Notes under the pieces: generated by a model
What the model was told of the DNA's origin: nothing
Database searches by the model: none
What the model saw: the letters and a program-made list of their open reading frames with translations, nothing else
Origin: Kordiimonadaceae bacterium
GTDB lineage: Bacteria > Pseudomonadota > Alphaproteobacteria > Sphingomonadales > Emcibacteraceae
DNA: 64,000 nt
Assembly (NCBI GenBank): GCA_018675425.1
Contig: JABGYD010000035.1
Coordinates: 62,001-126,000, forward strand
Direction of reading: 5' to 3'
Position numbers and translations under genes: made by a program
Part shown: in pieces, positions 22,502 through 44,076 of the stretch
Layout of the letters: every line of letters starts with the position of its first letter
Numbering within the stretch: the first letter of the stretch is position 1

Positions 22502-22515
22502 AATTGAAGAATTAA

Positions 22516-24606: not shown

Positions 24607-24608
24607 AT

Positions 24609-25208: not shown

Positions 25209-25217
25209 GGATAAAAA

Positions 25218-26231: not shown

Positions 26232-26256
26232 TTCTTTATTAACTAGATTAACATCT

Positions 26257-27057
26257 TTATAAAAAATTATTAGGATAGATCATCGTGCGCCACATGTGAG
26301 CTGAAGAGCTTCCATCATAACCAAGACCCTCTTCTGGATCACGCCAGTTTCTAGCAATAATATCATGGAAATCATCAAGGCTTACTTGGATATTTGGATC
26401 AAAACTATAAACGTCATTAATACAAATTTGACGTGCTGTCATATACCATTTGTGATTTCTGGCATATTCACCATCCTTAAAAATATAGGGCTCAGGCTTA
26501 TAATCCTCACCAAAGTAACGAACGTATGCCTCAGGGTATGGGTAGTTGACTTCCTCATCTGGAATAAAGCGTAAGGATTGGTGATATTTAATAGCCCATG
26601 AAATCTCCTCTTCCACGTAGGGCGCAACAAGTTGTGCTCCATAATAACCATGATCTACATTAATATAAGCGGTAACAGAAATGTCATGGAGTAAGCATGC
26701 TAATATCATTTTTTCTGGCAACCCGTTTAGTTTAGCTAGGCGGGCTGATTGTAAAAGGTGACTTGAGTGGCCAATGCGTTTGTCAAAAAATTCAAGCAAT
26801 GTTGGTTTTTCTGACATTTTAGGTAGTCTTGGATCATGCCCCATATGGCGAAGCTGTCCACCTATACGTGGTCCACTTTCCCAATCGTTATCAACACCAT
26901 AGGCTCTGCAGAAGGGAGATTTTGAAACATGGTTGAGGTTTGCAATTTCAAGTTCCTGTTCCATCGCCATTTCAAGAGCATCGGCTTTTTGATTTGCATT
27001 CATGGCAGCTAGAGCACTTGCTCCGCCAACAAATGATAAAAATTTACGCCTATCCAT
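26257..27057 (-). CDS. Exported HD-domain protein with Tat-like signal
   Basis: 266 residues. The N-terminus MDRRKFLSFVGGASALAAM looks like a twin-arginine export signal (RRKFLS). HD-domain ligands appear in order: HSSHLLQSARL, LLHDISVTAY (the HD pair), KYHQS and ICINDVYS. HD enzymes use one or two metals for phosphohydrolase or, in the PhnZ/MIOX branch, oxygenase reactions; an exported, Tat-dependent copy suggests metal loading before export. ATG 27057 is chosen for the GGGGGGA just upstream; ATG 27072 would add five residues. It converges on the homoserine dehydrogenase gene. Confidence 0.75.
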   Translation of the reverse strand: MDRRKFLSFVGGASALAAMNANQKADALEMAMEQELEIANLNHVSKSPFCRAYGVDNDWESGPRIGGQLRHMGHDPRLPKMSEKPTLLEFFDKRIGHSSHLLQSARLAKLNGLPEKMILACLLHDISVTAYINVDHGYYGAQLVAPYVEEEISWAIKYHQSLRFIPDEEVNYPYPEAYVRYFGEDYKPEPYIFKDGEYARNHKWYMTARQICINDVYSFDPNIQVSLDDFHDIIARNWRDPEEGLGYDGSSSAHMWRTMIYPNNFL

Positions 27058-27158
27058 TGTTTTTCCCCCCATTATGCAAATTATAAAACCACAAAAAAGT
27101 GTTAGTTGTCAAATTTCATAAAATAAAAGGGCAGGAAATGTAATTATTATAACCTTTT

Positions 27159-27455
27159 TTAATTGTGTGGAATGTTTATATTTTTAAAATAAAGCTTAGC
27201 AATTTTAAAACGTTGATAATACGGACAATTATCAGAAAGCTCTAAAACTTGAATGTACTCTTCAAGCATATCGATAATGATAGTAGAGCGAATTATTAGA
27301 TTTTTTTCTTCGCGGCAGGGTTGGTCTAAGTTCATCCACTCAGGGTGGGCGTGATGTAATTGAATTTCTTCCTCAATTGTGGTTATAAATTTATCAAGGC
27401 CTGCATCAATCTGTTCTTGTGTTATATTCGTTGGAGTTTTGTGATTATCTTTCAT
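27159..27455 (-). CDS. Conserved-looking small protein of unknown function
   Basis: 98 residues, acidic in the first half (TIEEEIQLHHAHPEWMNLD) and helical throughout by composition, with no signal peptide or membrane segment. Codon use matches its neighbours and the start is a normal ATG. I do not recognise the family. It is separated from the HD-domain gene by about 100 bases and is read in the same direction. Confidence 0.5.
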   Translation of the reverse strand: MKDNHKTPTNITQEQIDAGLDKFITTIEEEIQLHHAHPEWMNLDQPCREEKNLIIRSTIIIDMLEEYIQVLELSDNCPYYQRFKIAKLYFKNINIPHN

Positions 27456-27759
27456 AAAATTATAATTATAACAGATACAGATGCAAATATTAACGCAAAA
27501 GTATTGTTCCTTAAGTTAATTATTGAATAGTCACTCTAACTAATACTTTTTCTTAAGACAATTAATTACTGTGAATTGTTTAAAGTTAATTCCATGAATA
27601 GATTACAAAATAATTATTAATCAACCTTTGTAAAATCAATCTCATATTAAAAATTTAGCTTATAATTTTATAAACTTGGGCTTGCACTTGCTCCAATACT
27701 ATCTCCCGTGGTAGCGTAAATTTAGTATAAATATTGTAGTAATATATGGGAATATAATT
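27456..27759. other. Intergenic region without a gene
   Basis: 304 bases between divergent genes, the promoter region of the 1021-residue repeat protein. It is AT-rich and closed by stops in all frames. No operator, tRNA or recognisable riboswitch was seen. Confidence 0.5.
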
Positions 27760-30700
27760 ATGAAAATTAAGATTTTATTACTCCTCATTGCAGGTATTAT
27801 TAGTTTCACAACATTTTTTTCGCGTGTGGCTATTGCTACGGGTGTCAATGTTGGTGGAAAATATGAAAGCTATGAGTTTCGAAATGTTGGCCCAACTCGA
27901 GGCGGCCGAGTTACGACGGTAACGGGAACTGTTTCTGAGATGGGGACATTTTATTTGGGCGCGTCTGGTGGTGGTGTTTGGAAAACTTATGATTATGGCA
28001 CCACCTGGAATAACGTATCTGATGGCTATTTCTCCACACCATCGATTGGCGACATAGCGGTTGCACAAAATGATGCAAACATTGTTTATGTGGGAACTGG
28101 CTCAGATGGTCTCCGTTCTAATGTTATTGTAGGAAAAGGAGTTTATCGTTCAATTGATGGTGGTGAAACTTGGAACCATATAGGTCTAGAGAAGACCGGC
28201 CAGATTGGTGCGGTAGAAATAGATCCTCGTTCTAATGATACAGTTTATGTTGCCGCTATTGGTAATGCCTTCGCCCCGAATGAAGATAGGGGGCTTTATA
28301 AAACAACTGATGGGGGTGAAAATTGGAATAAAGTTCTTTTTATTTCAAAAACCGTTGGCATTGTAGATGTTGAAATGCATCCAAGTAATCCCAATATTGT
28401 ATATGCGTCCGCCTGGAAGACCGAGCGTAAACCCTGGACAATTATTTCTGGAGGTGAAATAGGTTCTGGTGAAGGGGGCATTTATAAATCAATCGATGCA
28501 GGCAAAACATGGAAAAAAATTAATGAAGGCCTTCCTACTGGTTTAGTGGGTAAAATTGATCTTGCTGTGACACCTGCTAATTCAAGTGTGATTGGAGCCA
28601 TTGTTGAAGCGCCAAGTCCAGATGGAGGCCTTTATTGGTCGGAAGATCAAGGCAATAATTGGACACATATTTCTAATGATAGTGGCGTTCAAAACAGACC
28701 TTTTTATTATACTAATCTTGATATAGACCCTACTAATGAAAATATAATTTTTTCAAATGCCAACCCATTAAGAAAATCTATAGATGGTGGAAAGTCATGG
28801 ACTAGTATGTCTGTTCCTCATGGAGATAATCATGATATGTGGCAAAATCCAAATAATCCTGACTTACTAATTCAGGCTAATGATGGTGGAGCAAATGTAA
28901 GTTTTAATGGAGGAAAAACATGGTCAACTCAATTTAATCAACCGACAACCGAAGTTTATCAGGTAGAGGTTGATGACCAACACCCATATTGGCTATATGC
29001 AGGGATGCAGGATAATGGATCCACTATTTCAGTACCTAGTAACGCGCCATGGGGAACACAACATACAAATGCTTATATTCAATATGCCGGTGGTTGCGAA
29101 ACCGGTCCAGCGGTTCCAAAACCAGGTAATCACAATATAGTTTACTCCGATTGCAAGGGGCGTTTTGGAACTTACGACAAACGTACCGGCACTGAGCGTG
29201 CTTATTACGTCGGTGCGACAAATATATATGGTCATAATCCGGCTGATCTAAAATATCGTTTTCAGCGGGTTGCACCAATTCACATTTCACCTCATGATGC
29301 TGATGTAGTTTATCACGGGTCTCAATATTTACACCGCACAGTTGATGATGGTGTTACATGGGAACAAATATCACCAGACCTCACAGCAAATGAGGCAGAT
29401 AAGCAAGTTATATCTGGAAGTCCAATTACTCGCGATATTACCGGTGAAGAATATTATTCTGTAATTTACTCTATTCAAGAAAGTAGGATTGAAAAGGGTG
29501 TTATTTGGACTGGTTCAAATGATGGCCCTGTATTTTTAACAAAGGATAACGGAAATACATGGAAAAATGTGACACCAAGAATGCCTGCTGGTGGCAGGGT
29601 AGACAGCGTAGCACCAAGTCCCCACACTCCGGGAAAAGCCTTTATTACAGTGTTAAGGTATCAGTTTGATGATTGGAAACCGTATATTTATAGAACAGAA
29701 AATTATGGGAGTAGTTGGAAATTAATTACTAATGGAATACCACAAGATTTTCCGGTTCGTGTCGTAAGGGAAAGTCCAGATCATGAAGGATTGTTGATAG
29801 CAGGAACTGAATTTGGAATGTTTGTGTCGGTCAATGATGGCGAAACATGGGAAATTTTTCAACAAAACCTTCCAATAACACCAATAACAGATGTTAAGTT
29901 TATTCGTGGGGACCTTGCTGTTTCAACTATGGGACGGGGATTTTGGGTTTTAGATAATATACAATCAGTTGCTTCTGCGGGAAGATTTGATGGGGATAGC
30001 GTTTCAGTCTTTAAACCTGCAAACACATTTCGATATAGACGTCCTCGTGGAGTTCCCCGGGATGGTACTTCAGACGGTGTGCCAGACCTTCCAAAACCAA
30101 CAGTTTCAATTGATTATTTTATTCCAAAAGGCGAGTATGAATCAATTAGACTAGAAATACTTGATGCCCAGAATGATTTTGTTACAGCCTATGTAAATAA
30201 TGGGTTATCGGCGAATGAAGATAATAAGGACTCACCCAATTATATTTTAACCGATAATCTTCATATGAGAGCTGGTCTTAATCGTTTTCGTTGGGATATG
30301 TCTCGACTTGGTCCATGGAATGCAAATTCGAAACGCCGCTATTCCGATGGTCCAATTGCTGCACCTGGGCTATATTCAGTGCGTCTTATAATTGATGGTC
30401 AGGTGGCTGAGACAAGTTTTGAACTAATAATTGACCCTAGGGTAACAGTTCAGGGTATCAAGGTTTATGATATTGCGGCTCAAAACGAGTTGCAGGGAAA
30501 TATCTCTAGTTTACTTACTAAAGCAAGAAAACTAGAGATGGTTGCAAAGAATGAGCACGTATCCTTACACAAACGCTATCGAGGAAAAACAGATATTGAA
30601 CGCGGGTCAGAAGTAAACTCTGATTTTGACCGTGTTCATGGTGCCATTAGAGCCTTGAGTACACCCAATATTATTTATCCTAAAGCCGGATTAGTTGGAA

Positions 30701-30825
30701 TGATCAGTTACTTGTATAATATTAACAGTGATGCTGATCAAATACCCGGGCGAGACAGTATTGAACGCTTTGCCGAACTTACTAATGAATATAATACCGT
30801 CGAAGCGGCATACTCAAGGAAGTAG
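27760..30825 (+). CDS. Exported WD40/YVTN/BNR-like (sortilin-type) Asp-box repeat protein
   Basis: 1021 residues with a signal peptide (about 1-26). At least nine Asp-box repeats of the form SxDGGxTW are spread over residues 60-700 (DYGTTWNNV, DGGETWNHI, DGGENWNKV, DAGKTWKKI, DNGNTWKNV, DGETWEIF), giving the Vps10/sortilin-type beta-propeller pair. The last third is a beta-sandwich region of unknown role. Relatives are annotated as glycosyl hydrolase-like or photosystem II assembly-like proteins, often without proof. An oxidoreductase gene starts five bases after its stop. Confidence 0.85.
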   Translation: MKIKILLLLIAGIISFTTFFSRVAIATGVNVGGKYESYEFRNVGPTRGGRVTTVTGTVSEMGTFYLGASGGGVWKTYDYGTTWNNVSDGYFSTPSIGDIAVAQNDANIVYVGTGSDGLRSNVIVGKGVYRSIDGGETWNHIGLEKTGQIGAVEIDPRSNDTVYVAAIGNAFAPNEDRGLYKTTDGGENWNKVLFISKTVGIVDVEMHPSNPNIVYASAWKTERKPWTIISGGEIGSGEGGIYKSIDAGKTWKKINEGLPTGLVGKIDLAVTPANSSVIGAIVEAPSPDGGLYWSEDQGNNWTHISNDSGVQNRPFYYTNLDIDPTNENIIFSNANPLRKSIDGGKSWTSMSVPHGDNHDMWQNPNNPDLLIQANDGGANVSFNGGKTWSTQFNQPTTEVYQVEVDDQHPYWLYAGMQDNGSTISVPSNAPWGTQHTNAYIQYAGGCETGPAVPKPGNHNIVYSDCKGRFGTYDKRTGTERAYYVGATNIYGHNPADLKYRFQRVAPIHISPHDADVVYHGSQYLHRTVDDGVTWEQISPDLTANEADKQVISGSPITRDITGEEYYSVIYSIQESRIEKGVIWTGSNDGPVFLTKDNGNTWKNVTPRMPAGGRVDSVAPSPHTPGKAFITVLRYQFDDWKPYIYRTENYGSSWKLITNGIPQDFPVRVVRESPDHEGLLIAGTEFGMFVSVNDGETWEIFQQNLPITPITDVKFIRGDLAVSTMGRGFWVLDNIQSVASAGRFDGDSVSVFKPANTFRYRRPRGVPRDGTSDGVPDLPKPTVSIDYFIPKGEYESIRLEILDAQNDFVTAYVNNGLSANEDNKDSPNYILTDNLHMRAGLNRFRWDMSRLGPWNANSKRRYSDGPIAAPGLYSVRLIIDGQVAETSFELIIDPRVTVQGIKVYDIAAQNELQGNISSLLTKARKLEMVAKNEHVSLHKRYRGKTDIERGSEVNSDFDRVHGAIRALSTPNIIYPKAGLVGMISYLYNINSDADQIPGRDSIERFAELTNEYNTVEAAYSRK

Positions 30826-30829
30826 TCTA

Positions 30830-31783
30830 ATGGTCCGAGTATTGGTTGTGGGTGTTGGTGTTATGGGTTTTGCCCATGCCAAAGCCTGTGCATCTATAAA
30901 AAACAATCAAATAGTAGGTCTAGTGGCGAGGGATTGGAAAAAATGGAATTTAGTAGCTGAATATTTTTCAGAAATTCCACGATATGAAGACTTTTTTTTA
31001 GCCCTGATTAAGACTAAACCTGATGTTGTCATTATCTCAAGTTTTACTGATACACACGCATCATACGCAATAAAAGCCTTGAAGGCTGGCGCGGATGTTT
31101 TTGTTGAAAAGCCCCTCGCCACAAATATTTTGGATGCTAAATTAGTAATAGCAACAGCACGAAAATATAAAAGAAAACTTGTTGTTGGCTTTATTCTTAG
31201 ACACCATGATATGTGGAAAAAATTTGTTGAGTGTACAAAATCTCTTGGGAAGCCGGTTCATTTAACAATTACAAGTAATCAGCACAGTATGGGCAGGGAC
31301 TGGCAACACCATATGAATATACTTAATTCGGGATTATCACCACTAGTAGATTGTGGGGTACACTATACAGACCTGATGCTCCAAGTGGTTAGTGGAAAAG
31401 TGATAAAGTCATATGCTAATGGAACAAAAACAAACTCTGAAGTAAGGGTTTCGAATAAAACAAATATGACAATTAACTATAGTGATGGGTCAACTCTTGA
31501 TTTCGAAAGCGGCTATGGCCCTGAAATCAATTTGGAAGAAAATATATCTAAAAAAGCTCAAGGACCACTTGGTTTTGTTTATATAAAATCGGAAAATATT
31601 GTAATACATAATGATCAAGAATATAATTTTTCTTCAAAGGCTTATGAAAAATCTATAAATACACAACAATCCTATTTTTTTGATGTAATAAAAAAAGATA
31701 TAGATTTGGAGCCGCACTATGAGACAGTTATGCTAAGTTTACAAATTGTACTAAATGCTGAACGTATTATGGCTGAAAATTAA
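30830..31783 (+). CDS. Gfo/Idh/MocA-family oxidoreductase
   Basis: 317 residues. The Rossmann motif is GVGVMG near residue 8, the family segment VFVEKPLATN around residue 95 carries the EKP lysine, and HMNILNSGLSPLVDCGVHYTDL has the D-x-G-x-H catalytic-type pair. Such enzymes oxidise sugars, inositols or biliverdin with NAD(P). ATG 30830 is chosen because AAGGA lies nine bases upstream; the frame is open further back but inside the preceding gene. Placed five bases after the Asp-box gene, it may act on the sugar product of that system. Confidence 0.87.
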   Translation: MVRVLVVGVGVMGFAHAKACASIKNNQIVGLVARDWKKWNLVAEYFSEIPRYEDFFLALIKTKPDVVIISSFTDTHASYAIKALKAGADVFVEKPLATNILDAKLVIATARKYKRKLVVGFILRHHDMWKKFVECTKSLGKPVHLTITSNQHSMGRDWQHHMNILNSGLSPLVDCGVHYTDLMLQVVSGKVIKSYANGTKTNSEVRVSNKTNMTINYSDGSTLDFESGYGPEINLEENISKKAQGPLGFVYIKSENIVIHNDQEYNFSSKAYEKSINTQQSYFFDVIKKDIDLEPHYETVMLSLQIVLNAERIMAEN

Positions 31784-31812
31784 ACTATTAGAACAACTGG
31801 CTATATAAAATT

Positions 31813-32457
31813 ATGATAATTAAAACTTATTTATTTGCATTAATTATTTTTGTTGTTTTTTGCTGTAATATTACAGTTAAGGCTCAAAATACATATCAAT
31901 ATATGGCTAATACGTCTGCTAAAGTTGTACAGGGGCGTATAATATCCAAAAAAGAAGTGCGGTATAATTACGACATCGAAAACCCTAACCTTATTTGTGG
32001 TTATATTTTGAATATTAAAGTAACTAAAAGTTACAAGGGTGGTGAAGAAGACTTTAGGGTATTTGCCACGAATAGTGACGTACTTATGGATAAAGGAAGT
32101 GAATATCTTCTTTTTGCTAGAAAAAATATAAAATTTGGTAAAAATGGTCGTGATGCAATTGATTTCATCAATTGTGATCAAGAAAAGTCAACCAGAATGG
32201 ATATTTCTGATTTTGAATTTCTTTCTACTCGTCTCAGTCAACAAATTTTTCCTTTAATTAGTTATAGTACTGAAAAGACTATTGTTGATGAAGATACAGG
32301 GATCATGAAACGTGGTGAATGGATGTTGATTGTTGACCGGATATCCAACAATGCACTTCCTTATAGCATTACGCGACGCCGCCTTAATAATGGAAACTTA
32401 AATGTTATTGAAGAAATGAATTATAAAGACTTTCTTTCGGCCTTTAAACTGAAATAA
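31813..32457 (+). CDS. Exported protein of unknown function
   Basis: 214 residues with a signal peptide (about 1-24, ending TVKAQN). The mature part has YILNIKVTKSYKGGE and later KGSEYLLFA, reminiscent of the OB-fold of TIMP/netrin-like domains in bacterial secreted proteins; that resemblance is weak. Two cysteines (ICGY and FINCDQ) could form a disulfide. It is 29 bases after the oxidoreductase gene and on the same strand. Confidence 0.6.
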   Translation: MIIKTYLFALIIFVVFCCNITVKAQNTYQYMANTSAKVVQGRIISKKEVRYNYDIENPNLICGYILNIKVTKSYKGGEEDFRVFATNSDVLMDKGSEYLLFARKNIKFGKNGRDAIDFINCDQEKSTRMDISDFEFLSTRLSQQIFPLISYSTEKTIVDEDTGIMKRGEWMLIVDRISNNALPYSITRRRLNNGNLNVIEEMNYKDFLSAFKLK

Positions 32458-32569
32458 TTAAAAGAAACATTGATTTCAGGTTTTATGTTTAAAGGGAATA
32501 TAAGAACGTAATTGGTTTTGAGGGGTTATATTTATAAGTTTTACTTCAGTAGTTAGATTATCAAAGAGG

Positions 32570-32887
32570 TTATATTTTTGTGATGGGTTCTTGGAGATTT
32601 TTTAACATATTATCATTAAAAAAAGTGCCGAATGGAATTACGGAAGCAATTATAACGCGTATAAATTGAATTATATTTAATCTTCGCCTCGCAATAGTAT
32701 CTAGGGTAATAAAAATATAAATAACAAAAAGAGCTCCGTGAAGTGCTCCAACATAAAAACTAAATCCCCGCATGCCCATATAGTATTTAAGAGGCATGGA
32801 AACAAAAAGTAGTAATAAAAATGAGAACCCTTCAATTAGCGCAATACTGCGAAGACGATAGATAGGGTCACTAAGATTGATTAACAT
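32570..32887 (-). CDS. DUF3817 small integral membrane protein
   Basis: 105 residues with three hydrophobic segments (IEGFSFLLLLFV, ALHGALFVIYIFITL and IRVIIASVIPFGTF). The order RLRSIALIEGFSFLLL, then YVGALHG, then IPFGTF matches DUF3817 membrane proteins, for which no activity is known. It is alone on the minus strand between two plus-strand genes. Confidence 0.78.
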   Translation of the reverse strand: MLINLSDPIYRLRSIALIEGFSFLLLLFVSMPLKYYMGMRGFSFYVGALHGALFVIYIFITLDTIARRRLNIIQFIRVIIASVIPFGTFFNDNMLKNLQEPITKI

Positions 32888-33088
32888 TTTTATCCTTAAA
32901 ATTTATAATACAAATATTTGATTTTTCCAAACTGTACAGACAAATCATACTGATAATTGTTGTGTGTATATAAATTATTAGGCAGTTTCAAAGAACCTAA
33001 TTAATTAAAGACAAAATATATTTAGTTGTATCATAAAAAAAAGAGTTTACAATAATTTAATATTATTTTCCTGGGGAGGGGAGTGGTT

Positions 33089-34246
33089 ATGAAATATATA
33101 ATTTTTTGTTTTTCAGTTCTAATGGTTTATCTTTCTCCTGTTATTGCTGCTGAGAAAATGGACGTTTATTACGGCGGAGTTTCTTTTATCGGAAATTTTG
33201 CTGACAATAAACGTCTCTATGAACATAGTTTTGCATTATCAGAAGAAAAAAATGCTGAAGGACTACCTATATTGGAGCAAGCACTTCTTGCCAGAGTAAA
33301 AAAAATAAATCGAGATGATATTAATTTTGTTATAGGTGGTCTTGGAAATTTAGACACTGGAAGCGCAATTACACTAGCCTTTGGAGTAGATTGGGAAAAT
33401 ATTTCAGTTGAAAATATTGCGGGACTTTATAAAATTGTTGTTGATTTACATGCGCAAATATTAATCTTTGATTATAATTCACAAAAAATAATTGGGAGCT
33501 ATCCAGTAGCTCTCCAGGTAAGAGATGTCTCGGAAACAGAGCCTTCACCAGAACTTATTCGCTCAATTATACGCTCCTTATATTTAAATGATGAATACGG
33601 GATGAATATTTTTGAAACTTTTGCAGAGAGGCTCAAAGAAGTGCCAATCCAAGCTTCTTTTGGTCAATATTTACGCGTGAACAATGTAATTTTAGAGGAA
33701 AAATCCCTACCTTTTATACCTACCGGTAACCAAGGAGCTTTTAAAACATTAGTTGCTCAAAGTTTTGGGAAGTACCTGTCTACGAACCAGAATGTGTCTC
33801 TCCTTCCTTATACTAAAGGCGAAGCTATTGGATCAAAGATGGCCTTACGTTTTTCAAATGGGGATATCTTTAATTTAATAACTCCAAGTTCTGATTACGG
33901 AATTGACTTAATTATACGCGGTTTCAAAAAAGTAAAAGCGGGGGAAAATCATGCTAAAGTATCCTGGGTATATGGTAGTTATGTGCGAATAAAAGTTGAG
34001 CAACCCGACACAAACAAACTATATATGGATATCCCGTTCGTAAATGCAGCGGTTAAAGAAGTCCCAATTAGTCAGTCAAGTGTTGATGATTGGTCTGCTT
34101 ACCAGGAATCTTTATTCTCATTTTTTGACCAATTTTCCAGAGAGATATCAAAACCTTCTAAAAAATGGTTAGGTAAGGTTACAAAAGTAAAAAATGCTTC
34201 GAAACAGTTGAAGGCCTTCAATAACATACTCAATAAAAGTCGATAA
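33089..34246 (+). CDS. Exported protein A of a FlgT/CsgG-like operon
   Basis: 385 residues with a signal peptide (about 1-20, ending PVIAAEK). Two halves can be seen: an N-terminal mixed region with YYGGVSFIGNFADN, and a second part around QSFGKYLSTNQNVSLLPYTKGEAIGSK that reads like the alpha/beta core of CsgG/TolB-N domains, which would fit a weak relative of the fourth operon member. The C-terminus is Lys-rich. ATG 33089 is preferred over GTG 33083, because the strong GGAGGGG is nine bases before it. Function unknown. Confidence 0.75.
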   Translation: MKYIIFCFSVLMVYLSPVIAAEKMDVYYGGVSFIGNFADNKRLYEHSFALSEEKNAEGLPILEQALLARVKKINRDDINFVIGGLGNLDTGSAITLAFGVDWENISVENIAGLYKIVVDLHAQILIFDYNSQKIIGSYPVALQVRDVSETEPSPELIRSIIRSLYLNDEYGMNIFETFAERLKEVPIQASFGQYLRVNNVILEEKSLPFIPTGNQGAFKTLVAQSFGKYLSTNQNVSLLPYTKGEAIGSKMALRFSNGDIFNLITPSSDYGIDLIIRGFKKVKAGENHAKVSWVYGSYVRIKVEQPDTNKLYMDIPFVNAAVKEVPISQSSVDDWSAYQESLFSFFDQFSREISKPSKKWLGKVTKVKNASKQLKAFNNILNKSR

Positions 34247-34274
34247 ATATTAAAGATATAAAAGGATAATAAAA

Positions 34275-35393
34275 ATGAAGTTTGCTGGTACTCTAAAAAC
34301 ATTTATTCAAATCACAATACTTTTAATATGCATGCTTAACATTACCATTGCGTCTGCGGTTGAATTTCAAGCAAGGGGCAGCGGAATTTTTCAATATGAT
34401 GAAAGATTTAAAAAGAGAAACTATGAGGGTTATAAGGAACAGGCAATTAAGCAAGCAGTTCAAAAGGCATGGTCTCAATATGTATCATCTTTGCCACAAG
34501 TAAAACGATCTTCTTATCAAAGAATTGAAGCTAACTTTATGAATAACCTTAATCGCTACATATCTAGTGTTGTTGTTTTGGATGAAAGTCACAATAAAAG
34601 GACAAAAACAGTTGAAGTTCTCATCCGTGCAGCAATTAATGATGATGAGGTTAACGCCACCTTAAATGCAAATTCTGCAATAAAACAAGCACAAGCTAGC
34701 GACGACGCTAGTTATTTTAGCGTTGTTTTTTTAGCGAGAAAAGTAACTAAAGTAAAACAATTCAGGGACTTAGAGACAAGTATTGTTGCAAAGGAAGGAG
34801 TAGCGATGGCTTCTGAGAGCGCCGTTGTAAGCGGAACTTCTATTTCTACCTCACAAAGTAATGAATCATTCAGTAAAACCAAGACTGGTGGTAACACTGA
34901 GATAAAGCGGGACATTTTAACATATGAAGTAACTAGCCCCGCTAGTATAAATTCTTCTATGGAAGAAATACTTTCTCCTGCAGGATATGAAGTTGTAGGT
35001 TACGGAGATATTGTTGGGGAATGTGGCGGGGTAGAGCCTTCTCAAATAATGCAAGAGTTTATGGAGTCGGATGATATGTCTCGTCAAACAAGGAGATCAG
35101 CTATTAATGCCGCTAGAGAATGTGATGTTTCATACTTCGCAACCGGAACTCTTGATATTGGCGAGCCTGGTACAGACCCTATTTCAGGAAATACAATGAT
35201 TTATGTCGCGGTTCGTGGACAAGTCTGGGACATTACTAAACGCCTTCCAAGAGGAGTTGCGTCAGTTGGTCCTGTTCAGTTTGCGGGGATGGGTCCAAAC
35301 GCTACAGTTGCAGAAAATAATGCTTTAATTCTTGCTTCAAAAGGGGCAGCACAAAGTCTCGTTGACCAAATGAATGCTAAAGGTCTTCGTTAA
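34275..35393 (+). CDS. Exported protein B of a FlgT/CsgG-like operon
   Basis: 372 residues with a signal peptide (about 1-29, ending ASAVE). Residues 30-130 resemble the FlgT N-terminal domain (GYKEQAIKQAVQKAWSQYVS, then YISSVVVLDE and KTVEVLIRAAI), as in protein D. A Ser/Thr-rich linker (SGTSISTSQSNESFS) precedes a second domain with DVSYFATGTLDIGEPG and a C-terminal A-E-N-N-A helix. AAGGATAA precedes the start. The two-domain plan suggests a periplasmic or outer-membrane assembly factor; its function is unknown. Confidence 0.75.
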   Translation: MKFAGTLKTFIQITILLICMLNITIASAVEFQARGSGIFQYDERFKKRNYEGYKEQAIKQAVQKAWSQYVSSLPQVKRSSYQRIEANFMNNLNRYISSVVVLDESHNKRTKTVEVLIRAAINDDEVNATLNANSAIKQAQASDDASYFSVVFLARKVTKVKQFRDLETSIVAKEGVAMASESAVVSGTSISTSQSNESFSKTKTGGNTEIKRDILTYEVTSPASINSSMEEILSPAGYEVVGYGDIVGECGGVEPSQIMQEFMESDDMSRQTRRSAINAARECDVSYFATGTLDIGEPGTDPISGNTMIYVAVRGQVWDITKRLPRGVASVGPVQFAGMGPNATVAENNALILASKGAAQSLVDQMNAKGLR

Positions 35394-35424
35394 TTATTAA
35401 TTAACTATATTTAAAGGAATTTAC

Positions 35425-36093
35425 ATGTTTAAATTACTAAAAACCTTTCTATTATTTACACTATTTTCAATTATTACTTCATCTAATGCGAATGCACAAT
35501 TTGGCGGTCTTTTAAAACAAGTGACTGGGGGCGACTTAGGTGCATTAACTGGCCAACAAACAGAAATTGTTCAGACCCTTGTGAATGGCTTAACAGAATA
35601 TACTAATGGACAATCTCAAGTTGCAAAAGCGCTGGGCTTAAAAAAACAAGTAGACATACTCGATAGTGAACAAGATGCCTTATCTAGCGGGAATGTTAAA
35701 GATAAAAAAAGTATACAAAGATCCATGAAAGTCAGTACTAATGCCCAAAAAGCAATAGATAAAAAAATGGCTGAAGGTTCAGAGATTAGTGCTGAAGCGA
35801 AAGTTGAGTTTAGAAAAGCATTGCCATATTACGCTCGCGGCACTGCCAGTTCAATTGCGTTAGTTCCCCAAGTTATTTCATGGGGTAGTGGTGCAACAAA
35901 TGCTGTTAAAAGTGGAGGAATGATGGGGGGGCTAAAAATAGCGAAAAGTTTAGGCACGGGAATTTTTCTTGTCAAAAACCTGCCCGGTTATGTAACAAGT
36001 GCTAAAAAAAGCTACGGGACTATGATGGCTTTTTCAAAGAAAAACGAAATAGATACCTCAGAAGCTGAAAGCCTTCTGGGTGACGATCTTTAA
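35425..36093 (+). CDS. Exported protein C of a FlgT/CsgG-like operon
   Basis: 222 residues with a signal peptide (about 1-24, ending ANAQ). The mature protein begins with a Gly-rich stretch (FGGLLKQVTGGDLGALTGQQ), continues with a Lys-rich helical middle, and has a mildly hydrophobic Gly/Ser part (SGATNAVKSGGMMGGLKIAK) that might insert in or lie on a membrane. AAAGGAA precedes the ATG. It might be the small secreted or oligomerising partner of proteins A, B and D, but no homology is recognised. Confidence 0.7.
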   Translation: MFKLLKTFLLFTLFSIITSSNANAQFGGLLKQVTGGDLGALTGQQTEIVQTLVNGLTEYTNGQSQVAKALGLKKQVDILDSEQDALSSGNVKDKKSIQRSMKVSTNAQKAIDKKMAEGSEISAEAKVEFRKALPYYARGTASSIALVPQVISWGSGATNAVKSGGMMGGLKIAKSLGTGIFLVKNLPGYVTSAKKSYGTMMAFSKKNEIDTSEAESLLGDDL

Positions 36094-36121
36094 TTTAATT
36101 TATCGTGAAAGGACATTACTT

Positions 36122-37567
36122 ATGAATTTTTTTAAATGCCTATTTGCTGGGTTTAGTTTAACAATATTGTCGGTGGTCCTTCTAGTATCAACTAGTTTAG
36201 CCGATGTCGAAGTCGTAGTAGTTGAAAGCGAGGGACGAGGTAGCAGTAGAGATGCGGCTATTAACGCGGCCCTTAGTGCTGCTGTCGCAAAGGTTAATGG
36301 TGTTTCCTTAACTTCTAATTCTCGGTCAATATCCGGACAGTCCTCTTCACAAATAGAAAATAATAGTCAATCTGTATCAGCTATATCATCACGAGTTGAT
36401 ACACAAGCAGCGGCTCAGGTCAGGTCGCGTCAATATAAGGATGGTCAAATACCGCCTGTATCAGATGTGACCGATGTATCTGTCGCAACTACATCAAGAG
36501 CTCAGGGTATCGCCGTTAGGGCTTCTGCATCAAAGATTAATAATAAAACATCATATGATGCTAGTCAGAAAGAAATTGATGTAAAGACAGCAGGGCAAAT
36601 TAAATCTTATGAAGTATTGAGTTTTCAAGAAGTACCACAGGGTTTTATTGTCCGTATTTCTGCGTCTATTTCAAAATTTGTAATATCAATCGAGGCAGAA
36701 CGTACCAGAATTGTTGTTGCACCGTTTAGAATGAAAACTAGAGGAAACACTATTAATGAATTTGAACGCCAATTTTCACAAACTTTGATTAACCAACTCA
36801 CTCAATCGCGTAAATTTGCCGTCCTTGACCGTGACTATATCAATGAGCAAGGTGTTGAATTAAATCTCTTGCAAGCTGGTGAAGTTCCAATCGATGAAAT
36901 GACTAAATTAGGGAACAAGCTTGGGACAGATTTTATCATAGTGGGCGCTGTTGATGAGTTTGTTTCTCGCCGTCGCAATCTAATAATGAAATCAACAGGG
37001 CAAGAAATACCTATGATTGATCAAGGCGCGAGGCTCTCTTATAGAATAATTAATGCAGCAACAGGGCAAGTAAAATTCTCAGATACATACGACAGCATTG
37101 AAACAAAACAAGGAACTGCTATCGCTTCTAAAATAATCGCAAACAAGGCTGCTAATGAGGTGTCACAGAATATTTTGATGAACTTTTACCCTGTTATGGT
37201 TGAAGCAATACAGGGCGATACTATAGTACTTGGTCAAGGTGGAGGTACTGTTGAGGCGGGTCAACAATTTACTCTTGTCCAATACGGTAAAGAAATAATT
37301 GATTCATATACTAAAGAGTCGCTTGGTCGCATAGAAAATAATGTTGGAACGATAGAAATTACTAGGGTGACCAATAATCAATCTTATGCTCGCATCCTCA
37401 AAGTTACGATTGATGTTGAAGCAAATTTTGAACCACAAGGTTTTATTGTTCGCCCGCTTCCAAAAAAACGTGCAAATGAGAATAACGAAAAAATTGCCGC
37501 TAAAATAAAAATAGAAACTGCAGCAAAATTAAATAATTTGCAAAAAGAAAGTGACAATGACTGGTAA
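36122..37567 (+). CDS. Exported CsgG-domain protein with FlgT-like layout (protein D)
   Basis: 481 residues, signal peptide about 1-28 (STSLADVE), and no lipobox Cys, unlike curli CsgG. The layout matches FlgT: an N-terminal domain (EGRGSSRDAAINAALSAAVA), a Ser/Gln-rich insert, a CsgG-type domain (about 190-330: ERTRIVVAPF, FAVLDRDYI, LGTDFIIVGAVD) and a C-terminal beta domain (TIVLGQGGGTVEAGQQFTLV). FlgT assembles the Vibrio H ring and CsgG is the curli pore, but no flagellar or csg genes are present. The start is ATG 36122 with AAAGGA; the frame is open to 36080. Operon end. Confidence 0.82.
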   Translation: MNFFKCLFAGFSLTILSVVLLVSTSLADVEVVVVESEGRGSSRDAAINAALSAAVAKVNGVSLTSNSRSISGQSSSQIENNSQSVSAISSRVDTQAAAQVRSRQYKDGQIPPVSDVTDVSVATTSRAQGIAVRASASKINNKTSYDASQKEIDVKTAGQIKSYEVLSFQEVPQGFIVRISASISKFVISIEAERTRIVVAPFRMKTRGNTINEFERQFSQTLINQLTQSRKFAVLDRDYINEQGVELNLLQAGEVPIDEMTKLGNKLGTDFIIVGAVDEFVSRRRNLIMKSTGQEIPMIDQGARLSYRIINAATGQVKFSDTYDSIETKQGTAIASKIIANKAANEVSQNILMNFYPVMVEAIQGDTIVLGQGGGTVEAGQQFTLVQYGKEIIDSYTKESLGRIENNVGTIEITRVTNNQSYARILKVTIDVEANFEPQGFIVRPLPKKRANENNEKIAAKIKIETAAKLNNLQKESDNDW

Positions 37568-37591
37568 AGCAATTAATTATATCTAAAATAC

Positions 37592-37611
37592 TAAATCCTT
37601 TTATGGATTTA
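37592..37611. terminator. Likely bidirectional terminator between convergent genes
   Basis: TAAATCC-TTTTAT-GGATTTA is a perfect 7-bp inverted repeat 25 bases after the protein D stop, followed on the plus strand by a T-rich run (TGTTGTGTTTTTT). It overlaps the stop codon of the convergent M1 peptidase gene, so one hairpin may end both transcripts. Confidence 0.4.
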
Positions 37612-40158
37612 TGTTGTGTTTTTTAAAATTTTATTTGCACGCTTCATTTGATCAGAGTTTTGTAGTATTTTTAACTTTAGTTGATAATTATAATCGGGGT
37701 TTTTGGTAAGAAAATTATTGACCGTAGCTATGGCAACATCACTTTGATAATATTTGAATGTGGCATTAAGCCACCTTCCAGGAAAAAAAATATCGCCTGT
37801 AATTTGTATATCTTCTAATACATTTAAACTTCTTTTAAGATAACCCTCGGAAAAATCAATTCGCAAGGGGTGATGTAAATATCTAAGTGCAGAAAGAACC
37901 CAGGGTTCTGTGTGTCTATTTTCTGCCTTCATGAGAGTACTAAAAAAATTGTCTCGAATATATTGATCTGAAGACAGAGCGGGAATTATAAATTGAAATC
38001 TTGCCTTATTATCTGGGCCCTTGATTTTAAGTAATTGTGTTTCAATTATTTGATCTGCAGAATTTGGAATCTTAATTGCTAGGGAAGCAGCGATGTTTGT
38101 GTAGTCACGAGTTGATAGATTAAGATTTTTTATTTTTAAACTTTCATTCCATACTGACTGAACATTAGATAGAGCACTAGGGGTTAGTGCAAGATTGGCA
38201 TAGTTACGAAAATAAATGCGCCTTATTCCTGTATTGTGTGCTTCATTCACGACTTGATTCCAAATGGCCTTTTCCAGGAACGGTGCTATATCTATTCGAT
38301 TTTTTTGATTAAATAATGACCAATAAATGTCTATAGTTTGTCGCATTATATGGTTTATTATCAATGGATTTTTTTCTCTACCAACAGCCCAAATAATTAA
38401 TTCGATATATTCCTGTGGTTCTATCGTTCCATTATTTTGCATTAATTGTTCGTATAATTTCACAAATGCTGATGCTCGCTCAAGGTCTGAGAGGTCACCC
38501 CAGTTTTCTCTTAGAAAATTTTTCTCTATTGAAAATAGTCCGTAGCCCATACCATCAGAGTTTAATAAAATTTTTTCATTAAGATTATTATCAAATTTAT
38601 TGAGATTAATTTCTTTCTTAAGATAAGGCACATTATAACTTTGATTACCCTTTCTAATTTCAAAAGTTTGTGACCAAATTCTTTTCATTTTTGATGTATC
38701 AGTTTGACTTAAAATCAAACCCTTATCAGGATATTTTTTAATATTAAATGTTGGTATCCCAGCGGTATTTACCCAAACATCGCTCCATGCATTAAGATCT
38801 TTTTCTGAACGTTTATCAAGAATACTTATAAGGTCAGGCCATGTAGCATTTGAAAATGCATAAGTTGATAAATATTCTCGCACACCTTCGCGAAAAAGAT
38901 CTTCACCGAGCAATTTTTCAAGCTGCTGCATCATAATTGGTGCTTTATTATAAATTATTGCACCATATAAGTTTCCAGCCTCATTTAGATTAGGTAACTG
39001 CTGTCTTATTGGGTTTGAGCCTTCAGATCGATCTACAGCGTAGGCGCCAGGATGAAGCCTTAAATGTGATCTAAGCTGGTGATCAATTCCTGGAAAATTC
39101 GGGTAGATCATTTTAGCAGCAAAGAAATTTGCAAATACCTCTTTTGTCCATACATCATCAAACCAATCCATTGTAACCAGGTCGCCAAACCACATATGTG
39201 AGGTTTCGTGGCCTATAAGCGAAGCCCTCGAGAGGAGGTCAGTCGTGGAAGGATTTTCATCAAGCATTAAACTTGCGGCTCTATATTGAATGGCACCTAT
39301 ATGTTCCATGCCACCAAATTGAAAATCCGGGATTAGCACAAAGCCAAACTTTTGGAATGGAAATTTAATACCTGTGTAATTTTCCATATAATTGATGGAA
39401 TCTTTATGAAGGGAAAATATTTCTTTAAGGTTTCGATTTACTTTTTCAGTATCGGGCTCTCGGTGGAGCATTGTCATTTCTAGCCCATCTAATACTGCTT
39501 TTATTTTAATGAACCGTCCAGCGACAAAGGAAAATAAATAAGTACTCATTTTGTCTGATTTTTTAAACCGCACTATTTTTTTTCTATTTCTTTGGGTTTC
39601 TCGAGCTATGGTGGTGCTGGACATAGTTTCCCAGCTTTCAGGCACTCTAAGTGTAAGTTCAAATGTTGCTTTTAAATTCGGCTGATCAAAGCTCGGAAAA
39701 CTTGTGCGCATACGGTCGGGCACAAATAGTGTGTAGAGAAAATTAGCTGATCTGTTTAATGCGTCATCACCAGCATTATATTTGATTTTTATTTTATTTT
39801 GACCAATTTTAAGTTCATTTTTATCAATAATAATATGTTCGTTATGATGCTTAATTTTCTGACGTGAACCATTAACGTGAACAGTTTGAATTTGATTTTT
39901 AAAAGCTTTAAAGTCAATTTGCAGGTCTTGCGAAAGGTTGTTGAGGTTAAATATAATTTCCGTCAGGCCTCGGATAGGAAGGTCAAGCTGTTCGGGAATA
40001 GTCAAATCCATTTTATAACTTAGATTTGATATATGTTTTTTACGGTAAGTTGCTAACTCCCAGGAAACACCTTTTACTATTGGCATGGTTGATAAATTTT
40101 GTGATTGCGCTGGAAAAATCAATAAATATAAAATTATAATACTACTAATATATCTCAT
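37609..40158 (-). CDS. Exported aminopeptidase N-like M1 metallopeptidase
   Basis: 849 residues with a signal peptide (about 1-19, ending AQSQN). The M1 layout is complete: N-terminal beta domain, FGGMEH (282-286) in place of the GAMEN motif, HETSH (317-321) with Glu340 exactly 18 residues on in WTKEVFANF, and an ERAP1-like helical C-terminal half from about 530. It should cut N-terminal residues from peptides in the periplasm or outside. The Asn of GxMEN, which helps bind the substrate amino group, is His here. Unrelated in detail to the other M1 gene in this window. Confidence 0.92.
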   Translation of the reverse strand: MRYISSIIILYLLIFPAQSQNLSTMPIVKGVSWELATYRKKHISNLSYKMDLTIPEQLDLPIRGLTEIIFNLNNLSQDLQIDFKAFKNQIQTVHVNGSRQKIKHHNEHIIIDKNELKIGQNKIKIKYNAGDDALNRSANFLYTLFVPDRMRTSFPSFDQPNLKATFELTLRVPESWETMSSTTIARETQRNRKKIVRFKKSDKMSTYLFSFVAGRFIKIKAVLDGLEMTMLHREPDTEKVNRNLKEIFSLHKDSINYMENYTGIKFPFQKFGFVLIPDFQFGGMEHIGAIQYRAASLMLDENPSTTDLLSRASLIGHETSHMWFGDLVTMDWFDDVWTKEVFANFFAAKMIYPNFPGIDHQLRSHLRLHPGAYAVDRSEGSNPIRQQLPNLNEAGNLYGAIIYNKAPIMMQQLEKLLGEDLFREGVREYLSTYAFSNATWPDLISILDKRSEKDLNAWSDVWVNTAGIPTFNIKKYPDKGLILSQTDTSKMKRIWSQTFEIRKGNQSYNVPYLKKEINLNKFDNNLNEKILLNSDGMGYGLFSIEKNFLRENWGDLSDLERASAFVKLYEQLMQNNGTIEPQEYIELIIWAVGREKNPLIINHIMRQTIDIYWSLFNQKNRIDIAPFLEKAIWNQVVNEAHNTGIRRIYFRNYANLALTPSALSNVQSVWNESLKIKNLNLSTRDYTNIAASLAIKIPNSADQIIETQLLKIKGPDNKARFQFIIPALSSDQYIRDNFFSTLMKAENRHTEPWVLSALRYLHHPLRIDFSEGYLKRSLNVLEDIQITGDIFFPGRWLNATFKYYQSDVAIATVNNFLTKNPDYNYQLKLKILQNSDQMKRANKILKNTT

Positions 40159-40356
40159 AACTTTTAAACCTTAAGACAGTTAATTGGTTACTATAATGCT
40201 ATATAAAAAACTTTAACAAATTTTTTTAAAAATTAAATTGTGTAATATTGTATTTGTTTATAAGAAATATTTCTCGAAATTTCTTTTTTACGCACCTGAA
40301 TGTTGTTATTAATATATAAAAATAAATTAAACTATATTTAATTTGGGCCAAAATAG

Positions 40357-40947
40357 ATGAAAAAATTATTAATTATTGCTATTAATTTGATGCTAGCACT
40401 TACAGTTTCTATTGCTAAGGGTGATGAATATAAGATAGATATCGAGGGAATGCACGCGGCCATTAATTTTAAAGTACGTCATATCGGCATAAGCTGGCTT
40501 TCTGGTCGGTTTGATAAATTTGATGGTTATTTTGTTTTTGATGAAAGTAACCCGGCTGCATCAAAGGTTATTGTTAATGTAGATGTTGCCAGCGTGAATT
40601 CGAACCATGAAGCTCGTGATGCGCACATACGAGAAGAAAACTACTTGAATGTCACGAATAATCCCACGGCACATTTTGAAAGTACGTCAATAGAAATTTT
40701 AGATAAAAGAAGTGGTTTAATCCATGGTCAGCTTACTCTAAATGGCGTTACTAATAGTGTTTCCCTTGATGCTGAATTTGTCGGTAAGGGTGATGATCCT
40801 TGGGGTGGGCACCGCGCTGCATTTGAAGCAAAATTATCAATTAATCCAACGGATTTCGACTTCAAATTTGAATATGGAGATGTTTACCTAACCTTATATT
40901 TAGAAGGTATTCGCAAAACTGCCGATAATACTAATGAAGACCATTGA
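40357..40947 (+). CDS. Exported YceI-family lipid-binding protein
   Basis: 196 residues with a signal peptide (about 1-22, ending AKGDE). The lipocalin-like YceI pattern is clear: YKIDIEGMHAAINFKVRHIG, GRFDKFDGYFVFDE, REENYLNVTNNPTAHFES and a C-terminal DFDFKFEYGDVYLTLYLEG. YceI proteins bind polyisoprenoids or similar long lipids in the periplasm and are often alkaline- or stress-induced. The gene is monocistronic, with a long AT-rich upstream region shared with the divergent M1 gene. Confidence 0.9.
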   Translation: MKKLLIIAINLMLALTVSIAKGDEYKIDIEGMHAAINFKVRHIGISWLSGRFDKFDGYFVFDESNPAASKVIVNVDVASVNSNHEARDAHIREENYLNVTNNPTAHFESTSIEILDKRSGLIHGQLTLNGVTNSVSLDAEFVGKGDDPWGGHRAAFEAKLSINPTDFDFKFEYGDVYLTLYLEGIRKTADNTNEDH

Positions 40948-40954
40948 TGTTTGT

Positions 40955-42079
40955 TTAGTAGTTTTTCTTTAAATAGTGATAAAATATATCCAACATTTCA
41001 TCCATTCCACTTCGGCCGAATCCTATTCTAAAGCGGTCTTGTGGTGCATCTAGCAGCTCAGATTTATAAATTCGTGGCGGGAGGATCATAATTCCAGTTT
41101 CTTCCAGTAAGTCTTGGCAAAATTGATCCGTTGAACCAGGGCCTATATATTTTGGGTAAGCTACTGCGCCTCCGTCAGGCCTTTTCCATTCAAACGTATT
41201 CGGAAACTCTAAAAAGAAATTATCCAATTTATTTAAGTTATCAAATATTAATTTATTGTTTTTTAGCAATATCTTATCTCGAGCTTTTAATGCAATAAGT
41301 GACAAAATTTCACTGGGCCCACTGTTACATATAGTTAAATAATGTTTAAAACGCTCAAGCTTTTCAAGTAGTGCTGTATCCTGACCTGCAATCCACCCAA
41401 TACGCAGACCTGGTAGGCCATATGCTTTTGACATTACGTTAAGTGATAGCCCTTTCTCATAAACATCTGCTACCTGTGGCATTCTTTTAGTCTCATCAGT
41501 TTCTATACCGCGGTAAACTTCATCACTAAATATATAAATATTAAATTTACGAGCAAGCTTTATAAGATTATTTAATTCATCACTGGATATGATTTTGCCA
41601 GTGGGATTATTTGGAAAGTTTATAGAGATTAACTTCGTGTTTGGCCTAATAGCTGCAATGATTTCATTAATATCGAGGGCCCAGTCATTTTCCGCTTGGA
41701 GAGCAACCCCAGTAACATCGCAAATACTAAGAGGTATAGTCTCAGCTGCTTGATAATTGGGAACGACTACTATCGCGTGGTCCTCTTTATTAAGGATTAC
41801 TTTCATTGCAACATAAAGTCCTTCTTCAGCACCAGCAAAACAGAGGATATTTTCACCTTTTAAATTATCGTAAGTTGACGCTATCTCTGACCTGAGCTCT
41901 GGTAAACCATAGGTCTGTGTATATCCAAGCCATAAATTTTCATACTTGTCACGATCTTCTGAACTTGCCATGGCTAGCAGTTCTTTGGTTGACATACTTT
42001 CCATATCAGATGCAGTTAAATGGTATTTGGCTTTAAATTCCCATTTAGAAAAAAATATTTCCAATTCAAAATTACGCAT
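40955..42079 (-). CDS. Class I/II aminotransferase
   Basis: 374 residues of fold-type I PLP enzyme. NFPNNPTG (154-161) places the cofactor Asn, FSDEVYRGIE carries the Asp and Tyr, and Lys218 in SKAYGLPGLRIGW is the Schiff-base lysine, with the Arg of RIGFGR near the end binding the substrate carboxylate. It falls among the general aspartate/aromatic/Ala transaminase-like proteins; the amino acid used cannot be told. No signal peptide. It converges with the YceI gene, leaving seven bases between stops. Confidence 0.87.
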   Translation of the reverse strand: MRNFELEIFFSKWEFKAKYHLTASDMESMSTKELLAMASSEDRDKYENLWLGYTQTYGLPELRSEIASTYDNLKGENILCFAGAEEGLYVAMKVILNKEDHAIVVVPNYQAAETIPLSICDVTGVALQAENDWALDINEIIAAIRPNTKLISINFPNNPTGKIISSDELNNLIKLARKFNIYIFSDEVYRGIETDETKRMPQVADVYEKGLSLNVMSKAYGLPGLRIGWIAGQDTALLEKLERFKHYLTICNSGPSEILSLIALKARDKILLKNNKLIFDNLNKLDNFFLEFPNTFEWKRPDGGAVAYPKYIGPGSTDQFCQDLLEETGIMILPPRIYKSELLDAPQDRFRIGFGRSGMDEMLDIFYHYLKKNY

Positions 42080-42324
42080 AAAACTTTTCCTTATTATAAA
42101 ATTTATTTATTTTGTAGCATGCCATTTTTAAATAAGAAAGGTTATTGCTTGACTTGATTAGTGAAAAGGCGCATCAAGCGGCCGTTACAGGATTATTATA
42201 TAATTCAATTCCGCTGAGCAGCCGTGACTAGTAACTATCACGAGTATCCCAACATAGGGCCATGTGCATTCGCGGAAATAAATATAGTTCTAGAAAGTAT
42301 GGAACAAACGCGAAGGATTACACA

Positions 42325-44076
42325 ATGACGCAGGAAATTGCGCCTGAAGAAAATTCGTTTGGCTTTAACGACTTTAGTTTTGATAAAGCTATTATAAAGT
42401 CTATTAAAAATGAAGGGTTTATTACACCAACGCCTATACAAAAAATGGCGATACTACCTGTTATGAGTGGGGTAGACTTAATGGGAATAGCTCAGACCGG
42501 AAGTGGTAAAACAGCAGCATTTTCTCTACCCACTATGAATAAAATTCTTCACGAATATAAAGCACCTGAAAAAAACAAACCCAAAGTATTAATAATTGCT
42601 CCAACCAGAGAGCTAGTAATGCAAATAGGAAAATTTATTGATACATTTAGCCGAGGCACCCCTATTAAAAGCCTTGTTGTTGCCGGTGGGCAGCCTTACC
42701 AACCCCAAATACGGAAACTTAAATATGGAGTTGATATTTTAATATCGACCCCTGGTAGGTTAATTGACCATATGGGTTCTGGAACAGTAAGATTAGATCA
42801 ATGTCATACATTTATTCTTGATGAAGCAGATAGAATGCTGGATATGGGCTTTATTGATGAAGTTAAGGAAATACAAGCAGCTTTGCGGGAGGATCATCAA
42901 ACTGTAATGTTTTCTGCGACTATGAATGCAAAGGTTCGTAGGCTTTCAGGTGATTTATTAAAAAACCCCGAATTCGTTGAGCAGGAGCGCAAAAACCTTG
43001 TTGCAGAGACAGTCACTCATAAATTAATGAATGTAAGACGTAAAAGTAAAACAGACCTACTTATTGAACTTCTGAAAGACGAAGGAATTGGTAAAGCCCT
43101 TATTTTTGCTCGAACTAAGCTTGGGGCTGATAATATTTGTGGCTTACTTAAAGAGGCTTTTCGCGACACTCCAGTTAGAGTTGATGCCATTCATGGTGAT
43201 AAAAAACAACGAACCAGAGAAAAAATTCTTTTAAACTTTAGAAAAGGCCGCACTACAGTTCTCGTTGCAACTGATGTTGCAGCACGTGGTATTGATGTTG
43301 ACGGTATTACGCACGTTATAAATTATGAACTGCCAATTGAAGCAGAAAATTATGTTCATCGCGTTGGAAGAACGGGAAGGGCGGGTGCATCCGGGCTTGC
43401 AATCTCTTTTTGTGATCCAAGTGATGTTCGTTTATTGAGAGAAATAGAGAGTTTAATAAAAATTAAAATTGATGTTGATGTAAATCACAAATATCACTTT
43501 GATCTCTCTGAAGTTCGGGATTTCAAAAGGGGCGGCAGAGGTAAGTTTGATAAACCTCGCAGTCGAAGAAAAGATTCCGGTTCTGATGGTAGGCGTAAAG
43601 ATAGCGGTGAAAAGAAACGTAGAGAGTTCAAGAAAGACGATGGTGGATTTAAGAAAGCTGGGGGCGGGTTCAAAAAACCTAATCAGGATGTTCGACGTTC
43701 TTCTAGACCAGAACATGCAAAAAAACCTGAGTATGCAAAACAAACAACCTCCAATAAACCTTCTTTCTCTGCCAAACCTAAACGTGAATATGATCCAAAG
43801 CGCGATAGTTACAAATTTGATTCAGATGCATTTGGCGATGATCCTGTAATGAAAAAGCTTCGTGGAAAACCAGTAAAAAATATAGTTAAAGATAATGGTG
43901 AAACTAAGGTTAGGCCAGAAAAAAAATACGATAAAAATAAAAGTACTGTATCTAAAGGAAAGAAAGATCGTACTTCCAATAAACGGGTAAAGTTAACCAC
44001 TACTAAAAAACAAACGGGTGGTTATAAAACGTTTACAGCAAAGCGTAACGTTGTAAAAGGTAATAGAAATAGTTAA
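42325..44076 (+). CDS. DEAD-box RNA helicase, RhlE type (copy 2) with long basic tail
   Basis: 583 residues. The helicase core (about 1-400) has AQTGSGKT, PTRELVMQ, TPGRLIDH, LDEADRMLDMGF, SAT, ATDVAARGID and HRVGRTGRAG. The last 180 residues are a Lys/Arg-rich, disordered-looking tail with short repeats of GGFKK type and later KKYDKNK stretches, probably binding RNA. The start is ATG 42325 with AAGGAT six bases upstream; the frame is open to 42262. The 245-base leader upstream is long and more GC-rich than its surroundings, as in cold-regulated mRNAs, but no known cold-box was identified. Confidence 0.92.
   Translation: MTQEIAPEENSFGFNDFSFDKAIIKSIKNEGFITPTPIQKMAILPVMSGVDLMGIAQTGSGKTAAFSLPTMNKILHEYKAPEKNKPKVLIIAPTRELVMQIGKFIDTFSRGTPIKSLVVAGGQPYQPQIRKLKYGVDILISTPGRLIDHMGSGTVRLDQCHTFILDEADRMLDMGFIDEVKEIQAALREDHQTVMFSATMNAKVRRLSGDLLKNPEFVEQERKNLVAETVTHKLMNVRRKSKTDLLIELLKDEGIGKALIFARTKLGADNICGLLKEAFRDTPVRVDAIHGDKKQRTREKILLNFRKGRTTVLVATDVAARGIDVDGITHVINYELPIEAENYVHRVGRTGRAGASGLAISFCDPSDVRLLREIESLIKIKIDVDVNHKYHFDLSEVRDFKRGGRGKFDKPRSRRKDSGSDGRRKDSGEKKRREFKKDDGGFKKAGGGFKKPNQDVRRSSRPEHAKKPEYAKQTTSNKPSFSAKPKREYDPKRDSYKFDSDAFGDDPVMKKLRGKPVKNIVKDNGETKVRPEKKYDKNKSTVSKGKKDRTSNKRVKLTTTKKQTGGYKTFTAKRNVVKGNRNS

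Follow-up and report, generated by a model that had tools for sequence, protein, structure and literature searches.

A recurrent four-gene set that includes predicted envelope proteins of the FlgT/CsgG class in a genome without flagellar rod genes

What does a protein with the domain plan of Vibrio FlgT do in a bacterium that has no flagellum, and what are the exported proteins encoded beside it? The question comes from a Kordiimonadaceae genome in which a 64,000-nucleotide stretch, called the window here, carries four consecutive genes that we refer to as A, B, C, and D (Table 1). An earlier note had described them as an operon and offered a ring- or pore-forming envelope complex as a guess. 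We found no description of the A-B-C-D set in the open-access literature, which is weak evidence of absence, and no mention there of DUF6844 (a domain family encountered below) or of "FlgT-like" proteins. One survey lists a hypothetical protein of Stenotrophomonas maltophilia with CsgG, LpoB, and FlgT_M matches solely as a predicted CsgG (PMC8159010); this protein is perhaps a D.

Layout and distribution of the gene set

Each of the four genes is preceded by a purine-rich site (GGGGAGGGGAG for A and AAAGGA for B, C, and D), and all four products begin with a hydrophobic N terminus of the signal peptide type. Strand, protein lengths, ribosome sites, and signal-peptide-like starts all match what the earlier note had reported. 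Shuffled sequence yielded promoter-like sites at least as often as the region did, and a terminator scan found no convincing site at the ends of the operon. The G+C content of the operon (37.1%) is close to that of the window (36.6%), and recent transfer as judged by odd composition was rejected on this ground.

Table 1. Positions of the features discussed (in the window unless a locus name precedes the coordinates)
Feature	Position	Strand	Description or basis
Gene A	33089..34246	+	385 aa, predicted exported; two tandem LptE/CsgG/FlgT-class domains (model)
Gene B	34275..35393	+	372 aa, predicted exported; FlgT-N-like N-terminal domain (profile comparison)
Gene C	35425..36093	+	222 aa, predicted exported small partner; seen only with the set
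Gene D	36122..37567	+	481 aa, predicted exported; FlgT plan (HMM, profile, model)
Signal peptide of D, without lipobox	36122..36202	+	N-terminal sequence
Segment missing in closest relative	32909..37597		Operon and upstream region; flank alignment
DUF6844-related genes	L017:6359-7705; L019:7030-8565; L020:7655-9052; L046:13208-14632; L049:10868-12286; L052:12004-13368; L053:1005-2351; L073:11272-12621		
Shared envelope-gene stretches	L019:328-6993; L020:13894-19488; L021:10164-14046; L028:1137-3693; L046:10-6488		
Second cluster kind	L022:8675-12261; L023:9026-12229; L024:7031-10680; L017:3957-8960		

Scanning the genome collection with D alone returned no relative, and one alignment (A2) was too diverse, but a closer alignment of B worked and yielded 50 loci on genome contigs. 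With family HMMs, all four genes were found on the same strand in 54 of 61 loci (a few contigs being counted twice), separated by short gaps and, in most loci, with an overlap of 10 bases between A and B. This recurrence is far beyond chance and bears out the proposed four-gene operon. The set occurs in alpha-, beta-, and gammaproteobacteria, Desulfobacteraceae, and Opitutales; hosts include Stenotrophomonas, Xanthomonas, Dyella, Lysobacter, Solimonas, Zoogloeaceae, Cupriavidus, Pandoraea, Burkholderia, and alphaproteobacterial metagenome-assembled genomes (MAGs). B was present in 7 of 398 genomes sampled across the phylum, and the strong cases that we inspected had A to D in order. BLAST on loci found via D placed the four genes together in Cupriavidus metallidurans CH34 and Caballeronia sp. 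SBC2. A class-mate of the window's bacterium gave A, B, and D by BLAST, with C later recovered by HMM, and a Geobacter MAG contig that is cut within the set retains B, C, and D. No relatives were found among viral contigs and phages.

The layout varies in places. The gene order differs in Burkholderia and Caballeronia, where D is found upstream of A, and C is duplicated in L046. In Pandoraea anapnoica the whole set occurs twice on different contigs (L084 and L089) in diverged copies that trees place as distinct paralogues. In three alphaproteobacterial MAGs a DUF6844-related gene separates C from D, and in others it flanks the set; its product, an exported protein of about 450 to 510 residues, adjoins the set in alphaproteobacteria, Desulfobacteraceae, and Opitutales. 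This protein is probably a fifth component that is missing beside the window's set, and a search of the window's genome, run without a positive control, gave no DUF6844 match. A second kind of cluster combines a D-like CsgG protein with LpoB-like, YcfL-like, and other lipoproteins.

Predicted folds of the four proteins

Pfam and NCBIfam searches with the single A to D proteins yielded almost nothing, and the domain assignment of D draws on several kinds of comparison. D consists of an N domain (residues ~28 to 187), a CsgG/FlgT_M middle domain (~190 to 355), and a FlgT_C/TsaP-like C domain (~357 to 445), followed by a helix and a DNDW tail. When the genome was searched in all six reading frames, D scored 34.6 bits against CsgG (cut-off, 20.8) and was the sole match, in line with the CsgG-type middle domain that had been noted. 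The FlgT_M match of the single protein was below the Pfam cut-off (E = 0.006). Among 23 D homologues, Pfam matched CsgG in 20 and LpoB in 14, and the NCBIfam LpoB model was matched by 6; the window's D has no LpoB match, whereas some relatives' D proteins do. LysM was absent from the Pfam scans of D. A search of PDB sequences with D alone gave no match, but the family profile matched TsaP in the C domain (E = 1.7e-5) and CsgG in the middle domain (E = 0.001).

A single-chain AlphaFold model of D, built from an alignment of 23 sequences, had a mean pLDDT of 72.7 and a pTM of 0.56, with residues 62 to 141 weak and largely unresolved. Foldseek comparison of this model with the PDB put FlgT entries in the first two places, 3w1e (E = 4.7e-19; 318 columns) and the LPHT ring structure 8z5n (E = 2.4e-18); HpaA, CsgG, GNA1162, and PelC (a dodecamer) followed at later ranks. 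These results uphold the three-part FlgT plan that had been suggested for D. Global TM-scores between D and FlgT were low (0.26 to 0.34; RMSD, 20 Å); we therefore claim, from the model, common domains in a common order and not a similar overall arrangement.

The middle domain of the D model has one long hairpin (residues 271 to 311). The aligned region of CsgG (residues 57 to 183) stops short of the second membrane hairpin, whose position we take from established knowledge, and in the model a helix (335 to 355) begins almost as soon as the middle domain's last strand (317 to 330) has ended. Since this leaves no room for the second hairpin, we do not take D for a pore of the CsgG type, and the pore-forming part of the earlier guess is unsupported.

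A lipobox is present in D at 44 of 58 loci and is missing in the window, as previously noted, and in alphaproteobacteria, Desulfobacteraceae, and Opitutales; D is thus probably a lipoprotein in about three-quarters of its relatives, though not in the window. At its C terminus, D carries an acidic-x-W (or Y) tail in 55 of 58 loci; a strict pattern recovers 53 of these, and two (L046 and L021) were recognized by eye. This tail (window positions 37543 to 37564) is conserved and preceded by a variable linker, and it may be a docking motif. It is found in every D beside a C gene and is missing in L017, L019, and L020; a link between the tail and gene C was considered and dropped, there being a weak C-like match in a neighboring protein of L019.

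The model of A (single chain; pLDDT, 87.3; pTM, 0.83) contains two successive domains, at about residues 24 to 182 and 195 to 352, each made of a strand, helices, three long strands, and a helix. Foldseek matched it to LptE, CsgG, HpaA, FlgT, and Cj1090c with probabilities of ~1 and modest E values (4e-5 to 1e-4). Thus, as modeled, A also belongs to the FlgT/CsgG fold class, as a tandem, which goes beyond the earlier note; that both A and D show this fold class was the outcome of its proposed fold check. None of 23 A homologues contained a Pfam family, and a viral fold search with A gave no usable match. A near-terminal cysteine of A (KSCR) is kept in nearly all relatives and is lost in the window (NKSR; positions 34231 to 34243).

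A profile comparison (E = 2e-4; 42 columns) shows that B and D have in common a segment from the final part of the N domain, which agrees with the FlgT-N-like start attributed to B. Its C-terminal half is conserved, with the motif V[AS]SVGPVQ.xG.GP, and resembles a CsgG/FlgT-class domain by eye only. Pfam gave no family of note for B or C. The description of C as a dedicated glycine-rich partner held for its dedication, whereas it is only mildly glycine rich (10.4% in the window's copy; family median, 7.5%). No significant similarity emerged when the profile of A was compared with those of B and D, or that of C with those of the N domains.

Genomic setting and the empty site

The window's genome is 99.6% complete. 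No flagellar rod protein (Flg_bb_rod) was found anywhere in it, although control genomes were positive, and no secretin was found, although positive controls matched; the reported lack of flagellar genes thus holds genome-wide for rod proteins. A survey of 95 neighboring proteins from 19 loci matched 93 Pfam families, 68 of them with a single member; among the other 25, which were listed, none was a flagellar, curli, or pilus family, so that within these families relatives of the set do not lie beside such genes. Neither this survey nor the fold models refuted the earlier reading by the tests that it had set. Most loci lack a neighboring peptidoglycan gene. Four alphaproteobacterial loci have the set near shared envelope genes, for an SLT transglycosylase, a peptidoglycan-binding domain, and several small membrane proteins without a Pfam match, and two of these loci have three more genes, for products of ~590, 180, and 410 to 440 residues that have no assignment.

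Relatives of the window's bacterium show how the operon is distributed at close range. In the closest one, whose aminopeptidase is 95% identical, the window flanks 22000 to 32908 and 37598 to 43220 align contiguously with 61 bases between them. The flanking genes are directly adjacent in three of four other congeners inspected and ~0.7 kb apart in the fourth (G020). The operon is a 4.7-kb unit that is cleanly present or absent, and the clean empty site in the closest relative indicates that its gain or loss happened in one piece. No match to B turned up in the other 32 genomes of the family; compared with repeated loss, a gain is the more parsimonious history, although not proved. No target-site duplication was found at the junctions. 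In a tree of B, the window's copy groups weakly with Burkholderia/Caballeronia (82/74) at long distances; the A tree, also with long distances, does not resolve its placement. The best reading is that the operon is transferable between bacteria, with neither tree singling out a donor lineage.

Candidate role and likeness to known systems

We propose that the four genes are a single transferable operon whose products would make up a periplasmic complex at the outer membrane. D would be its anchor, lipid-bound in most relatives and secreted in the window's bacterium; A, whose tandem domains both fall in the fold class of D, and B, with the N domain of D, would stack with it, and C would be a small dedicated partner. 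The result would be an H-ring-like scaffold lying between the outer membrane and the peptidoglycan, working with no flagellum and not itself an export pore. We give this flagellum-free, outer-membrane-associated complex with D as anchor about an even chance. The analysis shows the conserved gene set, the predicted folds of D and A, the empty site, and the lack of flagellar rod and secretin genes; that A to D bind one another, form a ring, and play a structural role is what we infer. FlgT, CsgG, and PelC belong to this fold class and form ring assemblies, which makes a ring shape plausible for the scaffold by analogy, and several PDB entries matched by the models are ring structures. The class also includes LptE, GNA1162, LpoB, and TolB_N, and its members do very different jobs; function is therefore not given by fold alone. 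A bolder version sees in A-B-C-D an envelope nanomachine, so far undescribed and spread horizontally, that would consist of FlgT/CsgG/LptE-class proteins in one ring or a stack of rings and would be a stand-alone kin of the H ring, independent of flagella, pili, and curli; this version is tentative, its chance somewhat short of even.

The same data could be read in other ways. D and B could act like LpoB, reaching through the wall from the outer membrane to activate a synthase or hydrolase, with the set regulating peptidoglycan synthesis or remodeling. The LpoB matches among D homologues point this way, and we keep this reading alive because D-type genes without A to C adjoin annotated YcfL and LpoB genes in Azospirillum, with similar clusters in L022 to L024, and the four alphaproteobacterial loci have lytic transglycosylase, peptidoglycan-binding, or related envelope genes in the vicinity of the set. 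We nevertheless consider it unlikely: the LpoB matches are weaker than those to CsgG and FlgT, LpoB is a single-domain lipoprotein whereas D has three domains, A and B have no LpoB match, and most sets adjoin no peptidoglycan gene. The set could also be an export apparatus in which D forms a CsgG-like outer membrane pore and C is substrate or gate; this would account for the CsgG domain of D, for CsgG and the PelBC exporter among its structural matches, and for the lipobox in most relatives. It is quite improbable given that the CsgG alignment stops before the second membrane hairpin and the model has no place for it, that we saw no curli-like or repeat substrate gene in the set, and that the window's D has no lipid anchor.

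The top rank of FlgT also raises the possibility of an H-ring remnant or accessory, borrowed from flagellated ancestors and acting on flagella where these are present. Rod genes occur in 13 of 18 relatives' genomes, but they are missing from the window's genome and from at least one isolate, Lysobacter profundi, which is among the five relatives without them (MAGs may be incomplete). Moreover, S. maltophilia D457 has its set at around 0.52 Mb and its rod genes at around 2.31 Mb, and a BLAST survey found no FlgT, FlgO, or FlgP homologue in S. maltophilia R551-3 (PMC6375700), a member of a genus that otherwise carries the set widely. We regard this explanation as very unlikely.

The operon is a testable candidate for the source of the add-on rings that polar flagella carry, or for what such rings become without a motor. 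It has this candidate status because it pairs a core protein of the FlgT plan with a tandem partner of the same fold class and is widespread and flagellum independent. It also brings together several uncharacterized families, which occur throughout Stenotrophomonas as well as in Pandoraea and Cupriavidus, as a single defined unit open to joint deletion and study.

Several known systems resemble parts of the set. Each half of A has the alpha-beta layout of the LptE/CsgG class, but A is a tandem with no Pfam or PDB sequence relative, and the set holds no LptD-like partner gene. The LpoB/YcfL/DUF6844 clusters, as on Azospirillum sp. TSH100 plasmid p1, hold D-type proteins but no A, B, or C; DUF6844-related genes also adjoin A-B-C-D-type sets in nine other loci. 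TsaP, associated with the type IV pilus secretin, is matched by the C-terminal domain of D, which differs in having no LysM match and a genome with no secretin. CsgG, the curli secretion channel, shares with D its middle domain and, in most relatives, lipoprotein status; D has additional N and C domains and, in the window, no lipid anchor, and no curli genes were seen. Vibrio FlgT differs from D in being encoded with FlgO/FlgP rather than A, B, and C, and D superposes poorly on it overall and carries the acidic-x-W tail and, in most relatives, a lipobox. FlgT is nonetheless the best structural match of D, an exported protein with the same three-domain plan and a CsgG/TolB-like middle.
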